In this document: positions 4,441-14,440 of the stretch, piece by piece
How the letters are laid out: each line of letters begins with the position of its first letter
Position numbering within the stretch: position 1 is the stretch's first letter
Origin: a virus
Direction: 5' to 3' (one strand)
IMG/VR virus record: IMGVR_UViG_3300043543_000655
Span: 1 to 22,994 of that record
Length of the DNA stretch: 22,994 bases
Program-made: the position numbers and the translations under genes
The notes under the pieces: model-generated
Databases searched by the model: none
What the model was told of the DNA's origin: nothing
What the model saw: the letters and a program-made list of their open reading frames with translations, nothing else

Positions 4441-5172
4441 CTATGCGGTTACAGTAGCGGCGGCAGTAGGCGTAATCAAAACCTTGATTGGAGCAGGATT
4501 GGTGGTCGTAGTTACTGCCTCTAAGGCAATAGCCACAGCCCAATCCGTTGAAGAATTAAACACACATTTAACCAGCCTCCCGTCAGCGGTTGTTTTCAGC
4601 GAATCCCCCGCCACAATCGTTTGGGAAGCCGCCAGGGAAGCAGTAATTTCACCCCCAGTTTGTATTGCAACTTCTGTACCTGCGCTAACTGTTTTAGTTG
4701 CAAAACCTACAATTTTTTGTCCTGGGTTACCTGTACCACCTGCTGTTGCATGAACCCCTGCGGCTGTTACAGCCCGTCCTTCCGTTACACCACCTGTTCC
4801 TGCTGTTAATTTAATTTGAGGCTGAACAACATTAATTGGTGTTCCAGGATAAAAAAATACAGGAATCAATTGTCCCGCCGCCGTTGCCGCCTTGAGTGCA
4901 ACCCCGACCGTTGAACCAGCAATCCGGTTAATTACCCGCCCGGAAGCATCAGATTCCAGCAGTCCGAACTCGGTAACCGCCGCCCCGGTTTCCACGTTAA
5001 TCACGCCATAGGTGTCAACGGTAAAACGCTCGCCATTATCAACACTGGTTCGAGCTACCCCAAACGCAGTTTCGCCTGCCCCCGTGTGCACACCACTGGC
5101 TTTAACCATTCGGTGTTTGGTAATGTTGGCAGTCGCCTTAATCGTCAACGGCAATAGCTGAATTTCAGACAT
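4441..5172 (-). CDS. Capsid decoration protein, tandem DUF2190-like repeats
   Basis: A 243-aa protein from ATG 5172 (AGGAGG six bases upstream; the start overlaps the upstream TGA). It is Ala/Thr/Gly/Val-rich and has two similar beta-rich halves. The first runs about residues 8-110 (TANITKHRMVKASGVHTGAG, then TAFGVARTSVDNGE). The second runs about 120-240 (TEGRAVTAAGVHATAGGTG, then IVGFATKTVSAGTEV). This is the layout of DUF2190 capsid fibre or decoration proteins, here duplicated. The AT-richer codon use around 4640-4860 differs somewhat from its neighbours. It probably coats the capsid surface. The stop is TAG, which matters for interpreting the amber codon in the terminase. Confidence 0.7.
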   Translation of the reverse strand: MSEIQLLPLTIKATANITKHRMVKASGVHTGAGETAFGVARTSVDNGERFTVDTYGVINVETGAAVTEFGLLESDASGRVINRIAGSTVGVALKAATAAGQLIPVFFYPGTPINVVQPQIKLTAGTGGVTEGRAVTAAGVHATAGGTGNPGQKIVGFATKTVSAGTEVAIQTGGEITASLAASQTIVAGDSLKTTADGRLVKCVFNSSTDWAVAIALEAVTTTTNPAPIKVLITPTAAATVTA

Positions 5173-6102: not shown

Positions 6103-6546
6103 CTATCCCAACAACTCCCGGCGAATCAACTCCACAATCCGTCGCTCCCGTTCCGGTGTCAGCCCGAGAAACTCCCGTTTTGGAATGCCCCTGGCGGGGT
6201 CGCCCTGGTTGTGCGTCCGAGCATAAATGACGTTCGTTCCGACCGCCACCTGATTCCCAGAAACCCGATAGGCAATCGAACCCCGCAACCGCCCCGTATC
6301 CGTCAAAATTTTGCGCCGTTTCCGATAGACAGCCTCTTGCTTAAACCCAGGCGTCCGTCCAAACCGCCGCCTAAACAGCGTCTTAGCCTGCAACTTCAGC
6401 GGCGGCCAAGGCGTTCCATCCGGCGCACGTTCGTTCCGAAAACAATTATCTGTTTCCAATAGCAAATATTCCCCCACCGCCACCAACGCCGCCCGGAGAC
6501 GCTCAGGAGCCAACCGCCTAGAAAGATTCAAACGCACCCTAGCCAT
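6103..6546 (-). CDS. Mu G-like virion morphogenesis protein (tail completion)
   Basis: A 147-aa protein. ATG 6546 is chosen because GGAGG lies nine bases upstream; an ATG at 6555 is directly abutted by that site. The start overlaps the end of the MuF gene. Typical family features are an N-terminal helix region (RRLAPERLRAALVAVGEYLL), then the conserved RAPDGTPWPPL segment, and after a basic stretch TDTGRLRGSIAYRV and VGTNVIYARTHNQG, the hallmark end of phage virion morphogenesis proteins. The C-terminus has PKREFLGLTPERERRIVELI. In Mu, G joins tail to head. Stop is TAG. Confidence 0.85.
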   Translation of the reverse strand: MARVRLNLSRRLAPERLRAALVAVGEYLLLETDNCFRNERAPDGTPWPPLKLQAKTLFRRRFGRTPGFKQEAVYRKRRKILTDTGRLRGSIAYRVSGNQVAVGTNVIYARTHNQGDPARGIPKREFLGLTPERERRIVELIRRELLG

Positions 6547-8998
6547 CCAAATCATCCTCCCGCTTCGCAGAGAAATCTTGCAGATTTTTCAATTCTTCAG
6601 CCAAGCCTTGAATGAAATTATCTTTAGAACGTCCAAAAATTACCTGTTTTGTGAGCTTTTCCACCGTCTTTGCCCCGACCCCCTTGACCCTGCGTTGCAC
6701 ATCCGCCGGATTCACAAACGGTTGTCGTTGCGCCTCCTGATAAATTTTAGTCGCCACAGACTTGGATATATTTAACTTTTTCTGTAAATCTTCCACAGAT
6801 GCGGAATTAATGTCAATTATTTCAGCTATTTCGGCTAAAGCCTTAAGTTTTTCCACCGTTTTAGGACCAATATCAGGCACCTTGAGCAAATCATCAAGCG
6901 AATTAATTTGTCCCCCTTCAGCCAAAAATTTCCGCAAACTCGCCACCTGGCGGGTATTCAACGGAGTTAACGTTAACAATTCCTGATTGGTAGCAGTCAG
7001 GATATTCAAATCCCCAACAAACACCCCAGGCTTTTGTCTCGCCTGTTCCAAATTGGCAATAATTCGGTCAATCTCCTGAGGGTCAATAGGCGAATCCAAT
7101 TCCGCCTGAGTCACAGCCCCGACCTCATTTCTAATCCTGACAATTTCCCCCGGCGGGTCTCGCTTTGCCAATGGTCCACCTTTAACCCCAGGGGGCAAAG
7201 ACAGCAAAGACGCAGGCCCAGGAGGCGGTTCCGGCGGTTTTGGGGCGAAATCCACATCAATTATCCCATCTGGGGGTGTAGGGGGTTTTCTCCTAGACCC
7301 CGTAGAGGGCGTATCATCAACTTGTTTAAGGAATTCATTCAAATCATCCACTGTGGCCTGCACCACGTCCCGGCGTTGCGGCCAAGTCAGTTGACCAGGT
7401 CGCTCTCCCATGCCACCGTGATAGACATCTTCAAAAAATCTATCTAAGCGATTTGGATCGGGAATGCGAAGGAACTGTAAGTAATCCTTATTACTGAAAT
7501 ATCGCCGATAACGTGTAGATTTTCCAAGCTGTGGTGGCGACCCCACGCCGCCCCAGGTCACAATATCATCAATTTCAATCCCTAACTCCTTGAAAATCCC
7601 TGCCACACCCTCAGATATATTTGCCCCAGAAGAATAACCTACTAAATTTATTTTTGCCACATCTCCAGTTTCCAAAAAATCGGCAATAATTTGCTGAGCT
7701 ACAGATTGTGTAGTTCTTCCATGATTCAAAAAAGTTTGGTATAAAATCGTATCCCATATATTTTTTACCCTTTTACTGGGGTTATTGATGGGTACTATTT
7801 CCCCTTTTAAGCCCAGCGCCCGCAAATTTTGCGCTATTTTTTGTGCCCCTTCCCCAAACTCATCTCCAAGCCCAGAGATGACATAAGTCCGTTGAGTCGT
7901 TTTAGGATTAGCCAATGCTCTTTTTATTTGATCAATGGAATCCTCCCCAAAAATATTGATTATTTCCTTAGCCCCTTGCTTGTGAAACTCCCGTTGAACT
8001 GCCTTGCCAGCAGAAGTAACCAATGCCCCGGAAAAAGCGATCTGCGCCGCATCCCCAGCCAATCCATAATCATCAAACGCCCAACCCGTCGCTAAACTCA
8101 GCCCAAAATTAAAAACTTTCATTTCGATCAGCTGAGCAATAGCCACCTTTGGGTCCGGGCTGAGACGGTCAAAATTGAGAGCCGCCTGCACCGCCGTCTG
8201 CAACGTTGAAATCACCCACGCCCTGGACACATAGCGCAACGGACGAGCGATATTCCCCGGCACCTTATCCCAGACCGCCAACTGGGACAACAGGGGCAAC
8301 TTTGCAGTCTGACGCTCCACCTCCGCTGTTAGGTTTTCCGCCCCAGGGATTACCTCAAACCCAGGGTCAACCCCCACCGGCACCCGCACCCGCCGCCCCT
8401 GGGCATCCGTATATTCGTAGAACTCATCATCAGGAACCTTGCTAACTTTTGCCTTATCCAAAGACAAAATCTTGCACTTGCACCCAAAGCCCGCCGGGGG
8501 AAATTTATTTCTAAACCAAGGGTGATTCGCCGGGAGCGTCACCCCATCCCAAGCTAAATGCTGTTTACGGGGATAAATTGAATCCCCATGCCGCCACATC
8601 CAATAAGGTCGAGCTTTGAGAGTAGCAGGGTCCGTTAATTGCCCATAACGCCCCGCCCCGTAAGCCTGGCGCAGATTTTGGTTCAAAATTAATTCCGTCC
8701 GCCAGGTACGATTGCCCCGATAGCTCCAGCCCGCCCTCGCCACCTCCCGATCAAAATCCTGCCGAAACTCCTGCAAAGTCGTCCCCTGCACCAACGCCTT
8801 ATCCACCGCCTGCCTTAGAGATTCCAGCAGTTCCGCCTGCATGACCCCCGCCACCGCAAATGCCCTATCCCGCTGTTGGGCAGTTAAATCCCGATAAGAC
8901 GCCGTAGGCAGATTCACTTTGGAACGAAAATACTCAATTGCCTCATCAAACGGCAGAGATTGCCAATCCGAACGAGCATCAACCCGAAAACTAGTCAC
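6539..8998 (-). CDS. MuF minor head protein with hydrolase-like and HhH modules
   Basis: An 819-aa protein starting at GTG 8998, overlapping the portal stop. Residues 1-185 form a MuF head-morphogenesis domain (ending RHGDSIYPRKQHLAWDGV, WFRNKFPPAGFGCKCKIL). Residues about 260-560 resemble an alpha/beta hydrolase: a strand TYVISGLGDEFGEG near 371, a nucleophile elbow GYSSG with Ser456, and a candidate His527 in VYHGG. A Pro-rich linker (565-615) leads to tandem helix-hairpin-helix motifs (705-790: VPDIGPKTVEKLKALAE, VKGVGAKTVEKLTK). A typical MuF of Mu (gp30) is about 430 aa, so roughly half is extra. DNA for the added part is clearly AT-richer. MuF proteins enter the head and can be carried into the new host; known MuF fusions include toxins. 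The enzyme activity here is inferred only. Confidence 0.8.
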   Translation of the reverse strand: MTSFRVDARSDWQSLPFDEAIEYFRSKVNLPTASYRDLTAQQRDRAFAVAGVMQAELLESLRQAVDKALVQGTTLQEFRQDFDREVARAGWSYRGNRTWRTELILNQNLRQAYGAGRYGQLTDPATLKARPYWMWRHGDSIYPRKQHLAWDGVTLPANHPWFRNKFPPAGFGCKCKILSLDKAKVSKVPDDEFYEYTDAQGRRVRVPVGVDPGFEVIPGAENLTAEVERQTAKLPLLSQLAVWDKVPGNIARPLRYVSRAWVISTLQTAVQAALNFDRLSPDPKVAIAQLIEMKVFNFGLSLATGWAFDDYGLAGDAAQIAFSGALVTSAGKAVQREFHKQGAKEIINIFGEDSIDQIKRALANPKTTQRTYVISGLGDEFGEGAQKIAQNLRALGLKGEIVPINNPSKRVKNIWDTILYQTFLNHGRTTQSVAQQIIADFLETGDVAKINLVGYSSGANISEGVAGIFKELGIEIDDIVTWGGVGSPPQLGKSTRYRRYFSNKDYLQFLRIPDPNRLDRFFEDVYHGGMGERPGQLTWPQRRDVVQATVDDLNEFLKQVDDTPSTGSRRKPPTPPDGIIDVDFAPKPPEPPPGPASLLSLPPGVKGGPLAKRDPPGEIVRIRNEVGAVTQAELDSPIDPQEIDRIIANLEQARQKPGVFVGDLNILTATNQELLTLTPLNTRQVASLRKFLAEGGQINSLDDLLKVPDIGPKTVEKLKALAEIAEIIDINSASVEDLQKKLNISKSVATKIYQEAQRQPFVNPADVQRRVKGVGAKTVEKLTKQVIFGRSKDNFIQGLAEELKNLQDFSAKREDDLDG

Positions 8999-10508
8999 CC
9001 TCTAAAACCTCAGAACGCCCCACCAAATCCGCCAGCACCAACGCCTGCGCCAACTGAGCCGCCACCTCTTGCACCGACAACTGAGGATAAATTTCCGCCA
9101 ACTTGCCCCGGAACTCCACCAAATCCTGAGAATCCTGCAACAACGCTTCAATCTCCCGCACCCAATCCCCCAACCCAGCCAGCACCCCAGGACGCAGCAT
9201 TTGAGCAATTTTCCCAACCGCATCCATCTCCCCAAACGCCACCGGCGGTTTTTCTTGCGGCAGTTCCAGCGGTTCATTCCGCTCCAACCAACCCTCCCCG
9301 TAGGTACTGCGGATGTATTCCAGGGTTGGTTTGAAGCCCATGCTATAGATTTTAACGTCCCGCTCCGCCAGCAGACCCCTATCCTCCGGCGTTTCAAAAT
9401 CCCTAGAAATAATAGGGACTGCAACATCCTCACCAAAATTAAACCGGCTTAACCACGCCACCGGACCCCGGCAAAACGAACCATAGATCAAATCGTTATC
9501 AGCGTGGACTAACTCCTCTTTGACCTGCGCCCGTTCCTGCTCATTGCCCAACTTACCCTCAGTCCCCTCAGTAGTGGCAGTTTGTCCCAAAATTACTTTG
9601 GCAATAGCTTTTTCCAACTGTGAATAAAGCTGATCAAATTCGGGTCCCGCCCCAGAATTGCTATTCAAAAATTCAATCAACCAGCCCTCCGGGAGAACCG
9701 CACCACCATTGGATTTCAGAGCTTCCAGGGTGCTGAGCAATTTTGATTGTTGGCTCGGGTCCGTGCCCGCCGGGAACCGCCCCAGCAGCATTCCCCCCGC
9801 CTTCTTCTCCAAAAAACTCAACCACTCCGACATATTCCCCCGTTTGAACAACACCAGCCAGTACAGCCAGTGCGCCAGCCCAATCCCATACGGGTCATCG
9901 CAATGGTCTGCCCCAGACGAATAATGCCAGAATCGCCCAGGATATTCCGCCGTGAGATTAATCCCCCGAACATAATCCGTCGGGGTCAGCAGGCGCAAAT
10001 TCCCCTGCGGGTCAAAACGGAACCGCCGCCGGTCACGCACCAAAACCCGATCCAACTGGACATAATTCCCATCCCGAACGTAGGTCAACTCGGCGACAGA
10101 ATAGCCGTAAAACACCCCCCAATGTGCCAACTCCGACCAGCCATCCCAATCCCCAGCCAGCACCCGCTCCGCCCAAAAATCCCGTGCCATCTCATCAACC
10201 TTGGAGACTGCCCGTCCCCTGGGCAGACCCACGTCCACCCGCATTGGCAGACTCAACAGAGCGTGAGTCCGTTGTTGCCAACACGCCTTCACCTGCGGGT
10301 CGGACCTCACCTTCGCATAAATATCCAGAGCATTCCAGCCCGCCCCCCCTTGAGAACGCAGGATATGATCCTGGTGCAGGAGCAAATCCGTGTAATACGC
10401 CCGGGAAACATCCAGCGACCGCCCACCCTGGTCAAGCAGCGGCGAGACCTCCGGCTGGTTAACCGGCGGCTTACGCCCCCACGCCTTGAGAATCCCTAAC
10501 CAGTCCAC
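8991..10508 (-). CDS. Portal protein, Mu gp29-like (DUF935)
   Basis: A 505-aa protein starting at GTG 10508, with GGGAGG six bases upstream; it overlaps the terminase stop. The order terminase-portal-MuF is as in Mu. Recognisable DUF935 pieces are DPQVKACWQQRTHALLSLPM, AHWGVFYGYSVAELTY, FRFDPQGNLRLLT, and GIGLAHWLYWLVLFKRGNMS; then GGMLLGRFPAG and KVILGQTATTEG. Portals form the dodecameric ring at one capsid vertex for DNA passage and tail joining. A single VAFG motif lies in the C-terminal extension (KPPVAFGEMD), shared with the protease/scaffold. The C-terminal about 80 residues are helical and Leu/Ala-rich. Stop is TAG. Confidence 0.85.
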   Translation of the reverse strand: MDWLGILKAWGRKPPVNQPEVSPLLDQGGRSLDVSRAYYTDLLLHQDHILRSQGGAGWNALDIYAKVRSDPQVKACWQQRTHALLSLPMRVDVGLPRGRAVSKVDEMARDFWAERVLAGDWDGWSELAHWGVFYGYSVAELTYVRDGNYVQLDRVLVRDRRRFRFDPQGNLRLLTPTDYVRGINLTAEYPGRFWHYSSGADHCDDPYGIGLAHWLYWLVLFKRGNMSEWLSFLEKKAGGMLLGRFPAGTDPSQQSKLLSTLEALKSNGGAVLPEGWLIEFLNSNSGAGPEFDQLYSQLEKAIAKVILGQTATTEGTEGKLGNEQERAQVKEELVHADNDLIYGSFCRGPVAWLSRFNFGEDVAVPIISRDFETPEDRGLLAERDVKIYSMGFKPTLEYIRSTYGEGWLERNEPLELPQEKPPVAFGEMDAVGKIAQMLRPGVLAGLGDWVREIEALLQDSQDLVEFRGKLAEIYPQLSVQEVAAQLAQALVLADLVGRSEVLEGD

Positions 10509-11824
10509 CGCAACCCTCCCCTAGGCATTGCCAACTCCCCCCACGCCAGCGCCGAAACCCTAGGGCGCAACCCCAACACCTGCTCAATCGGCGCCACCGG
10601 ATTATCCGCCCCATGCACCGCCAACGCCAACGCCCAGAAATAATCCCCGTGTCCAACCTCATCCCGATCCGCATCAAACCGGGGGTTCCCCGCACTGGTT
10701 CTAGTTTGCCGAATCGAGTGGAGAGATTCCCTGATGTCCCGGTCAATCGGGATTCTAATTTGGCGATCCTCAAATTTTCGCTTCAGCGTCACCGCCAAAT
10801 CCTGCTTCACCGCCCCAGTAAACGTCACCGCCTCCACCCGGTACTGCCCATGTCTGCGCTGCGCCTCCTCCGCCACCGGCATCCCCAACCCCGTCTCATC
10901 CAAACACGCCCGCCGCACCCGATAGCGAGCCAACACCCCATCCAACGCCGCCAACTGTTCCGCAAACGGCACCCGCAACAACGGAAGCACCTCCCGCGTC
11001 CAGAACAAATCCCCAATTTTTTCCACCACTTTTTCCACCACCCAAATCACTGTTAAATCCCTTCTACGCCCCACGTCCATCCCAACATAGCAATCCCCGC
11101 CTTGATAATTTCCGAGGCATTCTGGAGCCTCACAGGCGGCAATCAAGTCATAATCCAACCAAGCCCCCGCCTCATCCAGCCACTGCAGTTCATACTCCTG
11201 CGCCCAGGCATCCGGGTCATTCTACGCCCTTCTTAATTGCTCAATATCCCTGGGCAAGCCCTGCGCCACCGCCTGGTAAATATCACACCGGTGCTTGCTC
11301 CACACCGGGTCATCCGTCGTCATTAGCTCGTAAAACTTATTGCCCTTCCCATTCGGCGTAGAAATCACCCGCAGAGAGTGCCCCGCCGAAATCACCGGGA
11401 ACAACGCCGCCCAGATTTTCCGGGAATCCTGGTGGAACGCAAACTCATCCAGCAGGACGCTCGCACTAAACCCCCGAGCCGTGTCCGGGTTAGCAGGCAG
11501 AGCCGTGATCCTGGACCCATTTGGGAGCCGCACCTCCAGCGCATTTTCCTGGGCAGAAATCGGATAATTCAAATCCTCATACGCCACCTTAATCACCGCC
11601 AAATGCTTTTTAACCCCCTCATCCATCGCCTCCTTCGCCTGCCGCTCCCCCCGGGACAAGATCACCCAGCGGCGGGGAGATTCCAGAGCAGACAGCACAA
11701 TTTCCAAAGTCGCAACAAACGTCTTTCCAGTCTGCCTCGCAAACATCCCCACCTTAAATCGGGACTTATCCTCCAGCCACCGGCGTTGATAAGGATACAG
11801 CAGAGGTTCAAGAGACGAGACCAT
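10496..11824 (-). pseudogene. Terminase large subunit (Mu gp28-like) with in-frame amber codon
   Basis: One reading frame of 443 codons encodes the large terminase, but codon 201 is TAG (11224-11222). ATG 11824 has GGAGG six bases upstream. The N-terminal part has Walker A ARQTGKT (29-35) and Walker B VLLDE (123-127), plus STPNGKGNKFYEL, so it is the packaging ATPase. After the TAG, NDPDAWAQEYELQWLDEA continues the family pattern without a gap. The nuclease part has VGMDVGRRRDLTV (Asp250), LDETGLG and DEVGHGDYFWALALA. No good start serves the second half; its best candidate is a TTG without a clear ribosome site. Other genes here use TAG as an ordinary stop, so codon reassignment is unlikely. 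A TTG or similar sense codon probably mutated, or the read is wrong. Suppression cannot be excluded. Confidence 0.85.
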
Positions 11825-12314
11825 AAATTTCCTCCCGCACAATCCGTAGAGTTTCCGGGTCCAGATTCCGCTTGGGAGCCTCCCGCTCCAGTTTTATCAA
11901 CTTATCCTTAACCTCCTGCTGATAGCGTTTTACCGCCACCGTCCCCCGGCTCGTCTCCACCACCGCCCGACTGATCAGCGCCAACTCCTTCGGGGTCAAT
12001 TCCTCGCCCTTCTCCAACTGCAACTGGAACAGCAACGACTGATTCAATTGCAAAGACGCTTCCGAAACCGCCGCCTCATCATCCGCAAAAACCTGTTTCA
12101 TTTCCTGCGCCTGCCGGGTAGCGAGCCGCAACAACTGCACCTTATCCTCAAACTTCTGCCCAAAACGGTGAACCGACGACTTGCTAATCTCGTAGCCTTG
12201 TTCCTTCAGCCAATCCGCCAACTGCTGATAGCCCGAAAAACCCTGCCGCTCCAGCCGTTGCTCTAGCTCAATCCTGATTGCCTCTGGCAGTAGCTCAACC
12301 TTGGACGGCAGCAT
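11808..12314 (-). CDS. Mu gp27-like protein (DUF3486), likely terminase small subunit
   Basis: A 168-aa protein. ATG 12314 follows TGAGG with a five-base gap and lies 8 bp after the preceding stop; longer frames lack a site. It begins MLPSKVELLPEAIRIELEQR, followed by SGYQQLADWLKEQGYEISKS and SVHRFGQKFEDKVQLL, the classical DUF3486/gp27 helix-turn-helix N-terminus. The rest is a long helix/coiled-coil region ending APKRNLDPETLRIVREEIYG. Directly before the terminase large subunit, it is expected to bind phage DNA ends and start packaging. Its end overlaps the terminase start by 17 bp. Confidence 0.8.
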   Translation of the reverse strand: MLPSKVELLPEAIRIELEQRLERQGFSGYQQLADWLKEQGYEISKSSVHRFGQKFEDKVQLLRLATRQAQEMKQVFADDEAAVSEASLQLNQSLLFQLQLEKGEELTPKELALISRAVVETSRGTVAVKRYQQEVKDKLIKLEREAPKRNLDPETLRIVREEIYGLVS

Positions 12315-12624: not shown

Positions 12625-12931
12625 GCAGACCCTCCAGTTTTTCATTCAATCTGTCCAACTTGGCATCCAAAACCGCCCCAAACCGAATCCAATCCTCCCG
12701 CCCCACATACGTTTGCGAAACTTCCGCCTTAAACTGCAGGAATTTCCGCTCCAACTCAAACACCTCGCCCACCCCCCGCTCCGCCATCTCTTCAATCTCG
12801 TGGATTGAGCGGTCAACCCGTCCCAAACGAGAATCAATTAATTGCTTCAGCACCTCATTACTGCGAGCCGTGAGAAGCCCCACCCCCAACCAACCCAGCA
12901 CCGAAGTCAAAGCCAAAACTATTTCCAGCAT
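12611..12931 (-). CDS. Mu gp25-like membrane/coiled-coil protein (DUF2730)
   Basis: A 106-aa protein starting at ATG 12931, with GGAGG five bases upstream, overlapping the endolysin stop as TGATG. One N-terminal membrane segment (EIVLALTSVLGWLGVGLL) precedes a charged coiled coil (LIDSRLGRVDRSIHEIEEMA, then LDRLNEKLEGLREKL). This matches DUF2730/gp25 found upstream of gp26-gp27 in Mu-like phages. It may act in lysis, for example as a spanin- or holin-associated protein, but there is no proof. Topology suggests a cytoplasmic or periplasmic coiled coil anchored in the inner membrane. Confidence 0.75.
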   Translation of the reverse strand: MLEIVLALTSVLGWLGVGLLTARSNEVLKQLIDSRLGRVDRSIHEIEEMAERGVGEVFELERKFLQFKAEVSQTYVGREDWIRFGAVLDAKLDRLNEKLEGLREKL

Positions 12932-14022
12932 CAGTACCTCCAGCGCAAGCGACCAGGGCGCAGGTCAACGTGCGTGAACCCCAGACCAGAGCGTTGCCCA
13001 TAGCCCAATCCCCCCTCCCACCTCAAATCCAACCATTCCTCAAACTCCTGCCCATCCCGGTCAATCGGATAAATATCCGCCGCAATCCCATCAATATGGG
13101 TACTATTCGGCACCCCACCCACCGCCGCATTAATCGCCGGCGGACGATACCAGGACGTGACCCCAATCGGTCCCCCCCAGTCCCGGCGCAGTTTATCCAA
13201 CTTCCCCGCCAGGCGCAGGATATTCGCCTTGATTTGCGGGTCAGTCGGGATGCGCTTCGGGTCACCGTTTGTAACCTCACGGACGCTGAAAAACTCACTC
13301 ACCCGGGCATTCGGATTCTGCCAATCAATCCCAGGGCAAGTCACCCGTCGCACCGACTCCTGCGCCGCCACATGGTTGCCCGACTCCCCCCCACCCGGCT
13401 TGATCTCCGGCCAGGGCGAGCGATAAATCCTGACCCAATTCGCCGAGTCGCTCAACTGTTCCGGCGGGATATGCTTCGCCAACTCCTCAACAGCGTTGCG
13501 ATGCTTCGGGTTCCGTTCGTCGTAATATTTGAAAAAATTACTGAAAACAAACTCCGACTTAGGCGGATTCACATCAGCCAAAAACAGCACCTTTTCCCGT
13601 GCCCTACGTTTAACCAGCCCCGGCAGCACCTCCCCCGCCGCCCCATGCACCCAGTCATCGAACTCCCCAGCCGCCCCGTAGAAATCGCCCCGGTTCAACT
13701 TTTCCAGCAGACGGCTCCGGGAAAAAGCCCCCACCCCCACGTTATAGACCAGCGACAGCAGGGCAGTCCGTTGCAACCGAGAAATTTCCACCCGCACCAG
13801 CGAATCCAACTGCTGATTAATCCTGCCCAACTCCTGCGCCGCCCACTGATACGCCTGCTGTTTTGTGCAACGATGCCCCGCCTGCACCGGCGTACCATCA
13901 GGATAAAAAGTCGTTCCCAGCCCGATTGTCCACACCCCAGAGGGACACAAATACGCCTCCAGATGCAGACCCTCAAACTCCTCCAGAAGCTCAATCGCCC
14001 CCTTAATCGCCGGGTGTTCCAT
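12931..14022 (-). CDS. Bifunctional endolysin: GH24 lysozyme plus M15-type peptidase
   Basis: A 363-aa protein; ATG 14022 has GGGGAGG five bases upstream. Residues 1-145 are a GH24 lysozyme: catalytic Glu17 in EEFEGLHLEAYL, then CPSGVWTIGLGTT, and LQRTALLSLVYNVGVGAFSR. Where T4 lysozyme has Asp20, this has a CPSG version of the motif, also seen in relatives. A linker (about 150-260) leads to a D,D-peptidase-like domain with TSWYRPPAINAAVGG, His309 and Asp316 in STHIDGIAADI, and His351 in FTHVDLRPG, the M15-type zinc ligands. It should cut both glycan and peptide bonds of peptidoglycan at lysis. No signal peptide is seen, so a holin is needed. It corresponds to Mu lys. Confidence 0.85.
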   Translation of the reverse strand: MEHPAIKGAIELLEEFEGLHLEAYLCPSGVWTIGLGTTFYPDGTPVQAGHRCTKQQAYQWAAQELGRINQQLDSLVRVEISRLQRTALLSLVYNVGVGAFSRSRLLEKLNRGDFYGAAGEFDDWVHGAAGEVLPGLVKRRAREKVLFLADVNPPKSEFVFSNFFKYYDERNPKHRNAVEELAKHIPPEQLSDSANWVRIYRSPWPEIKPGGGESGNHVAAQESVRRVTCPGIDWQNPNARVSEFFSVREVTNGDPKRIPTDPQIKANILRLAGKLDKLRRDWGGPIGVTSWYRPPAINAAVGGVPNSTHIDGIAADIYPIDRDGQEFEEWLDLRWEGGLGYGQRSGLGFTHVDLRPGRLRWRY

Positions 14023-14440
14023 CCCCACCTCCCCACTGATCCAGAATCAAATCCCGCACCGCATAGCCCAAATCTAGGGCGTCAATTTTCAAAATTTCCT
14101 GATGCCCCCGGCGAATCTTCTCCGGCAAATCCGGGCGATCCAGGTCGCTGGCAACCAAACTTTTCAGCAACAGCCCCGCCTGTTCAATCTGCTCAAGCGT
14201 TGGTTTAGGGTCCATCAGCGGTCTGCCCGCCGGATAGCTGTGGGTCAGCCAGGTTTGATAGGCAAGCAGCACCAATTGATCCCAAGACGTCGCCGATTGT
14301 GCCGCCTGGTGGAACGCCCCCAAAAAATCAAAAAACCGTCCAACCGTCTGACGAGTCGAGAGTTTCAGCACAAACCGGCAATAAAAATAAAACGCCAGCA
14401 AAGCGGCAAAAACAATCACAAACAAAATTGCTGGCGACAT
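14003..14440 (-). CDS. Membrane protein, possible holin or lysis accessory
   Basis: A 145-aa protein with ATG at 14440 but no recognisable ribosome site. Residues 1-24 (MSPAILFVIVFAALLAFYFY) form one membrane segment, followed by a cytoplasmic-type charged helical region (LGAFHQAAQSATSWDQLVLL, EQIEQAGLLLKSLVASDLDR). It is the first gene of the late block and overlaps the endolysin start. Holins often precede endolysins, but a single membrane span plus a 110-residue soluble part is not typical. I do not recognise a family. Confidence 0.65.
   Translation of the reverse strand: MSPAILFVIVFAALLAFYFYCRFVLKLSTRQTVGRFFDFLGAFHQAAQSATSWDQLVLLAYQTWLTHSYPAGRPLMDPKPTLEQIEQAGLLLKSLVASDLDRPDLPEKIRRGHQEILKIDALDLGYAVRDLILDQWGGGDGTPGD

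Follow-up and report, generated by a model that had tools for sequence, protein, structure and literature searches.

A MuF head protein of a Mu-like phage with an alpha/beta-hydrolase-like domain and a tandem helix-hairpin-helix tail

MuF proteins of phages have been proposed to deliver effectors (Jamet 2017, PMC5576092; Iyer 2017, PMC5512222). Most of the toxin domains described by Jamet et al. are nucleases, metallopeptidases, ADP-ribosyltransferases, and RelA-like domains, and a small downstream ORF, which is usual though not universal, accompanies 89% of their MuF toxin genes; the main text makes no mention of a lipase, a hydrolase, or a helix-hairpin-helix (HhH) domain (PMC5576092). The MuF-PBECR2 proteins of transposable phages carry an extension of ~150–230 aa with an RNase-type BECR domain (PMC5512222). 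Lipase-like toxin domains are described as Tox-ABhydrolase 1–3 in classical and T6SS-type polymorphic toxins, and we found no mention of a MuF fusion of these domains in the text of that study (Zhang et al. 2012, PMC3482391). Among MuF proteins, SPP1 gp7 has been studied best. It binds DNA, is targeted to the procapsid through the portal, and supports infection; of SPP1 virions without gp7, only about 25% are infectious (PMC6316719).

We analysed positions 1–22,994 of IMG/VR record IMGVR_UViG_3300043543_000655 (this whole stretch of 22,994 nucleotides is called the window). An intact frame of 819 codons is flanked by a Mu portal gene on one side and a gpG-like gene on the other, and it overlaps each of them. 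The features of the locus are as follows, in the direction of transcription:

8991–10508, minus strand: portal gene (Portal_Mu, E 1e-79), overlapping the MuF start by 8 bases
6539–8998, minus strand: complete gene for the MuF protein with hydrolase-like and HhH regions (GTG start, TAG stop)
8327–8998, minus strand: MuF domain (PF04233), residues 1–224, with the invariant His147, Cys173, and Cys175
7907–8323, minus strand: helical, partly hydrophobic stretch without a Pfam match, residues 226–364 (low-confidence model secondary structure and hydropathy)
7304–7906, minus strand: alpha/beta-hydrolase-like domain, residues 365–565 (hhalign against Lipase_3, Abhydrolase_6, Lipase_2, and combined profiles, with controls)
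7625–7639, minus strand: nucleophile elbow GYSSG, residues 454–458, Ser456 codon at 7631–7633 (sequence and profile alignments)
7484–7486, minus strand: candidate catalytic Asp505 (SNKDY), from order and spacing
7418–7420, minus strand: candidate catalytic His527 (YHGG, residues 526–529), the sole His C-terminal to Asp505 and the final His in the sequence
7019–7303, minus strand: proline-rich linker, residues 566–660 (19 Pro in 95 residues)
6842–7006, minus strand: HhH_3 / ComEA-like unit 1 (29.7 bits, Pfam cut-off 27)
6641–6823, minus strand: HhH_3 / ComEA-like unit 2 (37.7 bits)
6103–6555, minus strand: the next gene downstream, gpG-like (virion morphogenesis / tail completion), overlapping the MuF stop by 17 bases

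The surrounding morphogenesis module is Mu-like, with genes for a Gp27-like protein, terminase, portal, MuF, gpG-like protein, protease, head decoration/scaffold, and major head protein. The terminase lies upstream of the portal and gpG downstream of MuF, which places the MuF gene in the packaging/head module beside the portal, and the MuF/portal/gpG order matches that in relatives. Since MuA, MuB, GemA, and Mor-like genes are present upstream of the module, the phage is transposable and temperate. An endolysin gene at 12931–14028 (minus strand) joins a phage-lysozyme domain to Peptidase_M15_3, a two-activity lysis enzyme. The locus resembles the MuF polymorphic toxins in its N-terminal MuF domain, its place in the packaging module after the portal, its temperate phage, and the long extension in the toxin slot (PMC5576092). 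It likewise shares with the MuF-PBECR2 proteins the same MuF domain and mostly the same gpG-like gene next, but their shorter, RNase-type extension is replaced by about 594 aa with a hydrolase-like region and an HhH tail (PMC5512222). Unlike the polymorphic toxins (PMC5576092), it has no small downstream ORF: the 17-base overlap leaves no immunity ORF between the MuF and gpG-like genes, and gpG directly follows MuF in most sampled relatives too.

At local composition, the chance of 594 open extension codons is about 3e-16, and the extension frame is therefore not a chance product; the other five frames across it hold 13–47 stops each. The frame of the large terminase subunit (TerL) is split by an in-frame TAG at 11222–11224 (minus strand), with Terminase_6N in 11222–11842 and Terminase_6C in 10496–11158; this may mean that the phage copy is defective, that the stop is recoded, or that the assembly contains an error. 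Together with the source, an IMG/VR virus record for which no close relatives were found, the TAG would fit a decayed or chimeric sequence, that is, a defective phage copy or misassembled contig with a functionless extension. We consider that reading highly improbable, as the 819 codons form an open frame that overlaps the genes on either side, in the gene order of a phage, and a misjoin would need to be in frame at two junctions.

The MuF anchor itself is almost certainly genuine. PF04233 matched residues 61–177 with 37.6 bits (curated cut-off 29.6; E 4e-9), and PHROG 220, ‘minor head protein and DNA pilot’, matched residues 8–367. Clear homology runs from about residue 11 to 224–239, according to tblastn in phage records and the profile alignment of relatives, somewhat past the 185 residues that an earlier note on this DNA had rightly called a normal MuF domain. 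Identity to five viral relatives in this domain is 39–44%, and all 13 columns that are invariant across 80 relatives, including His147, Cys173, and Cys175, are present here. The protein is, like SPP1 gp7, a MuF-type minor capsid protein, but gp7 has no effector domain and no HhH tail is reported there (PMC6316719). Its closest MuF relatives come mostly from genomes of proteobacteria and deltaproteobacteria. The cyanobacterial host assumed in the earlier note is thus not established, being neither supported nor excluded; the cyanobacterial HIP1 octamer, with 0 found in the window and 0.47 expected, decides nothing.

We compared the C-terminal extension with those of relatives fetched from the MuF-domain alignment (80 bacterial-genome loci and 80 viral-contig loci; about 170 compared overall). 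Their extensions range from 0 to about 540 aa, and the 594 aa of the window is the longest. Among the 79 relatives whose extensions are 100 aa or longer, a Pfam scan found PBECR2 in 38/79, ADPrib_exo_Tox in 2/79, and MuF_C in 1/79, and neither HhH nor an alpha/beta hydrolase in any. With hhalign, none of 86 distinct relative extensions reached 21 on two hydrolase profiles, on which that of the window scored 33 and 35.5. An extension with hydrolase and HhH regions occurred in none of the about 170 relatives. This is not the outcome that the earlier note had named as counting against an unusual cargo, namely one extension common to all relatives. The MuF C-terminus is therefore a variable, effector-like slot, and its filling here is unique in the sample. 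The note had also proposed that the extension would be an unusual effector cargo of a MuF protein; it does lie in the slot where relatives hold effector domains. Its elbow is of alpha/beta-hydrolase type, and neither a homologue nor a toxin family was matched.

Several relatives have features of their own. Two long MuF proteins (L039:6180-10037 and L048:7980-10196) have ADP-ribosyltransferase-like C-termini, and an immunity ORF would fit into the gap of 510–860 bases before the gpG-like gene at these loci. L081 and L092 have HExxH metallopeptidase-like motifs in their extensions, and in 2/80 sampled MuF proteins a Portal_Mu domain shares the MuF reading frame (portal-MuF fusions).

Base composition sets the extension apart from its surroundings. 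GC is 0.44 at 6500–6999 and 0.41–0.44 at 7250–7999, against 0.55–0.60 in most flanks, which bears out the AT-richness noted earlier. Third-position GC is 0.54–0.69 in the MuF part (residues 1–260), 0.35–0.37 in residues 351–560, and 0.44 in residues 661–819. Most other phage genes measured have values of 0.60–0.68, with exceptions at 4441–5172 (0.39) and 1281–2267 (0.52); the former is a scaffold/decoration-like gene on the minus strand. The low GC of the extension would be consistent with its having been acquired from a more AT-rich source.

Residues 226–565 are covered by no curated family. For residues 365–565, no family in Pfam, PHROGs, or NCBIfam was above its cut-off, and the Pfam lipase families Lipase_3 and Lipase_2 gave no match. 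Weak Pfam matches fall at the elbow (Abhydrolase_3, E 0.11; Abhydrolase_1, E 0.19), where the sole PDB sequence match up to E 10, a serine hydrolase, also aligned. We then compared this core, as a single sequence, with hydrolase profiles for Lipase_3, Abhydrolase_6, and Lipase_2, each made from real sequences found in genomes. It scored 35.5 against Lipase_3 (E 9.6e-5), 33.0 against Abhydrolase_6, 32.2 against Lipase_2, and 37.1 against a combined profile. On the Lipase_3 profile, the maximum was 24.2 for 30 shuffles and 21.7 for 400 ORF fragments from relatives (mean 12.6, sd 2.2); 15 shuffles on Abhydrolase_6 and 15 on Lipase_2 all fell far below the core score, and other segments of the same protein scored at most 15. 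Genuine Abhydrolase_6 members scored 36–50 against the Lipase_3 profile, and genuine Lipase_3 members 16–58 against the Abhydrolase_6 profile; the match of the core is thus roughly as good as that of true hydrolases to the profile of another family. A motif scan of viral contigs for GYSSGAN yielded 36 peptides as possible relatives; none had a hydrolase-like score, and as chance occurrences of the motif they stayed at or below 17.1 on both the Lipase_3 and the Abhydrolase_6 profile.

The four profile comparisons, set against these controls, support a GxSxG elbow in a strand-turn-helix context, and at the elbow residues 365–565 thus behave like a distant alpha/beta hydrolase. On this evidence the region is very probably an alpha/beta hydrolase, in which it would resemble Tox-ABhydrolase 1–3 as a putative effector domain of that fold (PMC3482391). 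All four matches centre on the elbow and neighbouring elements and rarely reach further, that of the Lipase_2 profile covering the elbow alone, so they single out no alpha/beta-hydrolase subfamily and do not by themselves warrant the name ‘lipase’. The lipase-like effector of the earlier note accordingly keeps its alpha/beta-hydrolase-type elbow, but no Pfam lipase match or subfamily assignment goes with it. Ser456 and the candidate His527 are where the note had placed them, and Asp505 would complete a possible triad in canonical Ser-acid-His order. The Asp505/His527 region may resemble a small LipA-type lipase, which we take as a lead only.

Searches for homologues of the hydrolase region found none by pattern scans with tblastn confirmation in viral and genome contigs, by tblastn of phages and plasmids, or by a whole-genome search covering about 1,300 genomes in five phyla, those to which five of the relatives' genomes belong. 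A single whole-genome match (E 3e-5) was rejected as it falls in a thiolase frame. Because no homologue was found, structure prediction, one of the checks proposed in the earlier note, was of low confidence: AlphaFold without homologues gave pLDDT 37 for the whole protein and 36 for residues 362–568, and Foldseek with this single-sequence model of residues 362–568 returned no match at E <= 0.001.

Beyond the proline-rich linker, residues ~661–790 form two tandem ComEA-like HhH units (E 2e-15), both above the PF12836 cut-off, as expected from the two segments that the earlier note had reported near the C-terminus. The tail also matches TIGR01259 and TIGR00426 below the NCBIfam whole-protein cut-offs. 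It is nearly certain to be genuine, and no relatives of it were found in phage records. The units and these matches are shared with ComEA-type DNA-binding domains, but here they belong to a phage head protein and not to a DNA-uptake protein. By analogy, a DNA-binding tail of its own could plausibly elaborate on the DNA-binding role of SPP1 gp7.

We propose that the C-terminal effector slot of the MuF protein of this temperate transposable phage is filled by an acquired alpha/beta-hydrolase-type serine hydrolase, with a flexible linker rich in proline leading on to a ComEA-like, presumably DNA-binding tail. As inferred from SPP1 gp7, the MuF domain would bind the portal and carry a few copies into the procapsid, where the HhH tail is predicted to hold the packaged genome non-specifically. 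At infection, protein and DNA would exit together through the tail. In the new host, Ser456 with Asp505 and His527 would then cleave an ester or amide (in a lipid or in some other molecule of the host or of a defence system), and this hydrolysis would favour establishment of the phage. Packaging and co-ejection of the protein are probable, and we judge the explanation as a whole, a MuF effector protein with a co-ejected serine hydrolase cargo and a DNA tether, to have an even chance of being right. The points against it are that neither a curated family nor a homologue was found for the region, the low pLDDT and empty fold search, the missing immunity gene, and the TAG in TerL. More tentative, and rather doubtful, is the stricter form in which a virion-delivered alpha/beta-hydrolase effector built on MuF has its own DNA tether and enters together with the genome as one complex.

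The target of the enzyme is a separate question, and a lipid is a possible substrate with somewhat less than an even chance. A hydrolase acting on a non-lipid (a peptide, a thioester, acyl-ACP, or an ester-linked signal or defence molecule) would be an early counter-defence or host-takeover enzyme. The four profiles match mainly around the elbow and favour no subfamily, and the absent immunity gene suits a mild, non-lethal target; no substrate is directly supported, however, and we regard this reading as unlikely. As no immunity gene lies downstream, we favour an enzyme that is mild, that acts at a site to which the lysogen is not exposed, or that acts only in the few injected copies, over a toxin that is strongly lethal in the cytoplasm.

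The missing immunity gene would also agree with a structural or ejection-assisting module, in which a hydrolase fold without relevant catalysis is joined to a DNA-binding tail that helps to arrange the genome at the portal or to pilot it. SPP1 gp7, a DNA-binding protein with no enzyme part, still raises infectivity (PMC6316719), and the very name of PHROG 220 refers to a DNA pilot. Yet the GxSxG elbow and the downstream Asp and His are retained in canonical order, and a DNA-binding tail alone needs no hydrolase-like domain of 200 residues, which leaves such a module with a low probability.

Under the proposed effector reading, the protein would add to a list of MuF cargoes that is so far short: nucleases, peptidases, ADP-ribosyltransferases, and nucleotide synthetases. 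A serine hydrolase, if true, would widen this list to esters, lipids, or peptides, and the fused HhH tail suggests a concrete way of keeping a cargo with the genome during ejection. In the stricter form, with enzyme and genome entering as one complex, the protein would stand for a new class of effector and also for a new device that loads cargo for MuF delivery.
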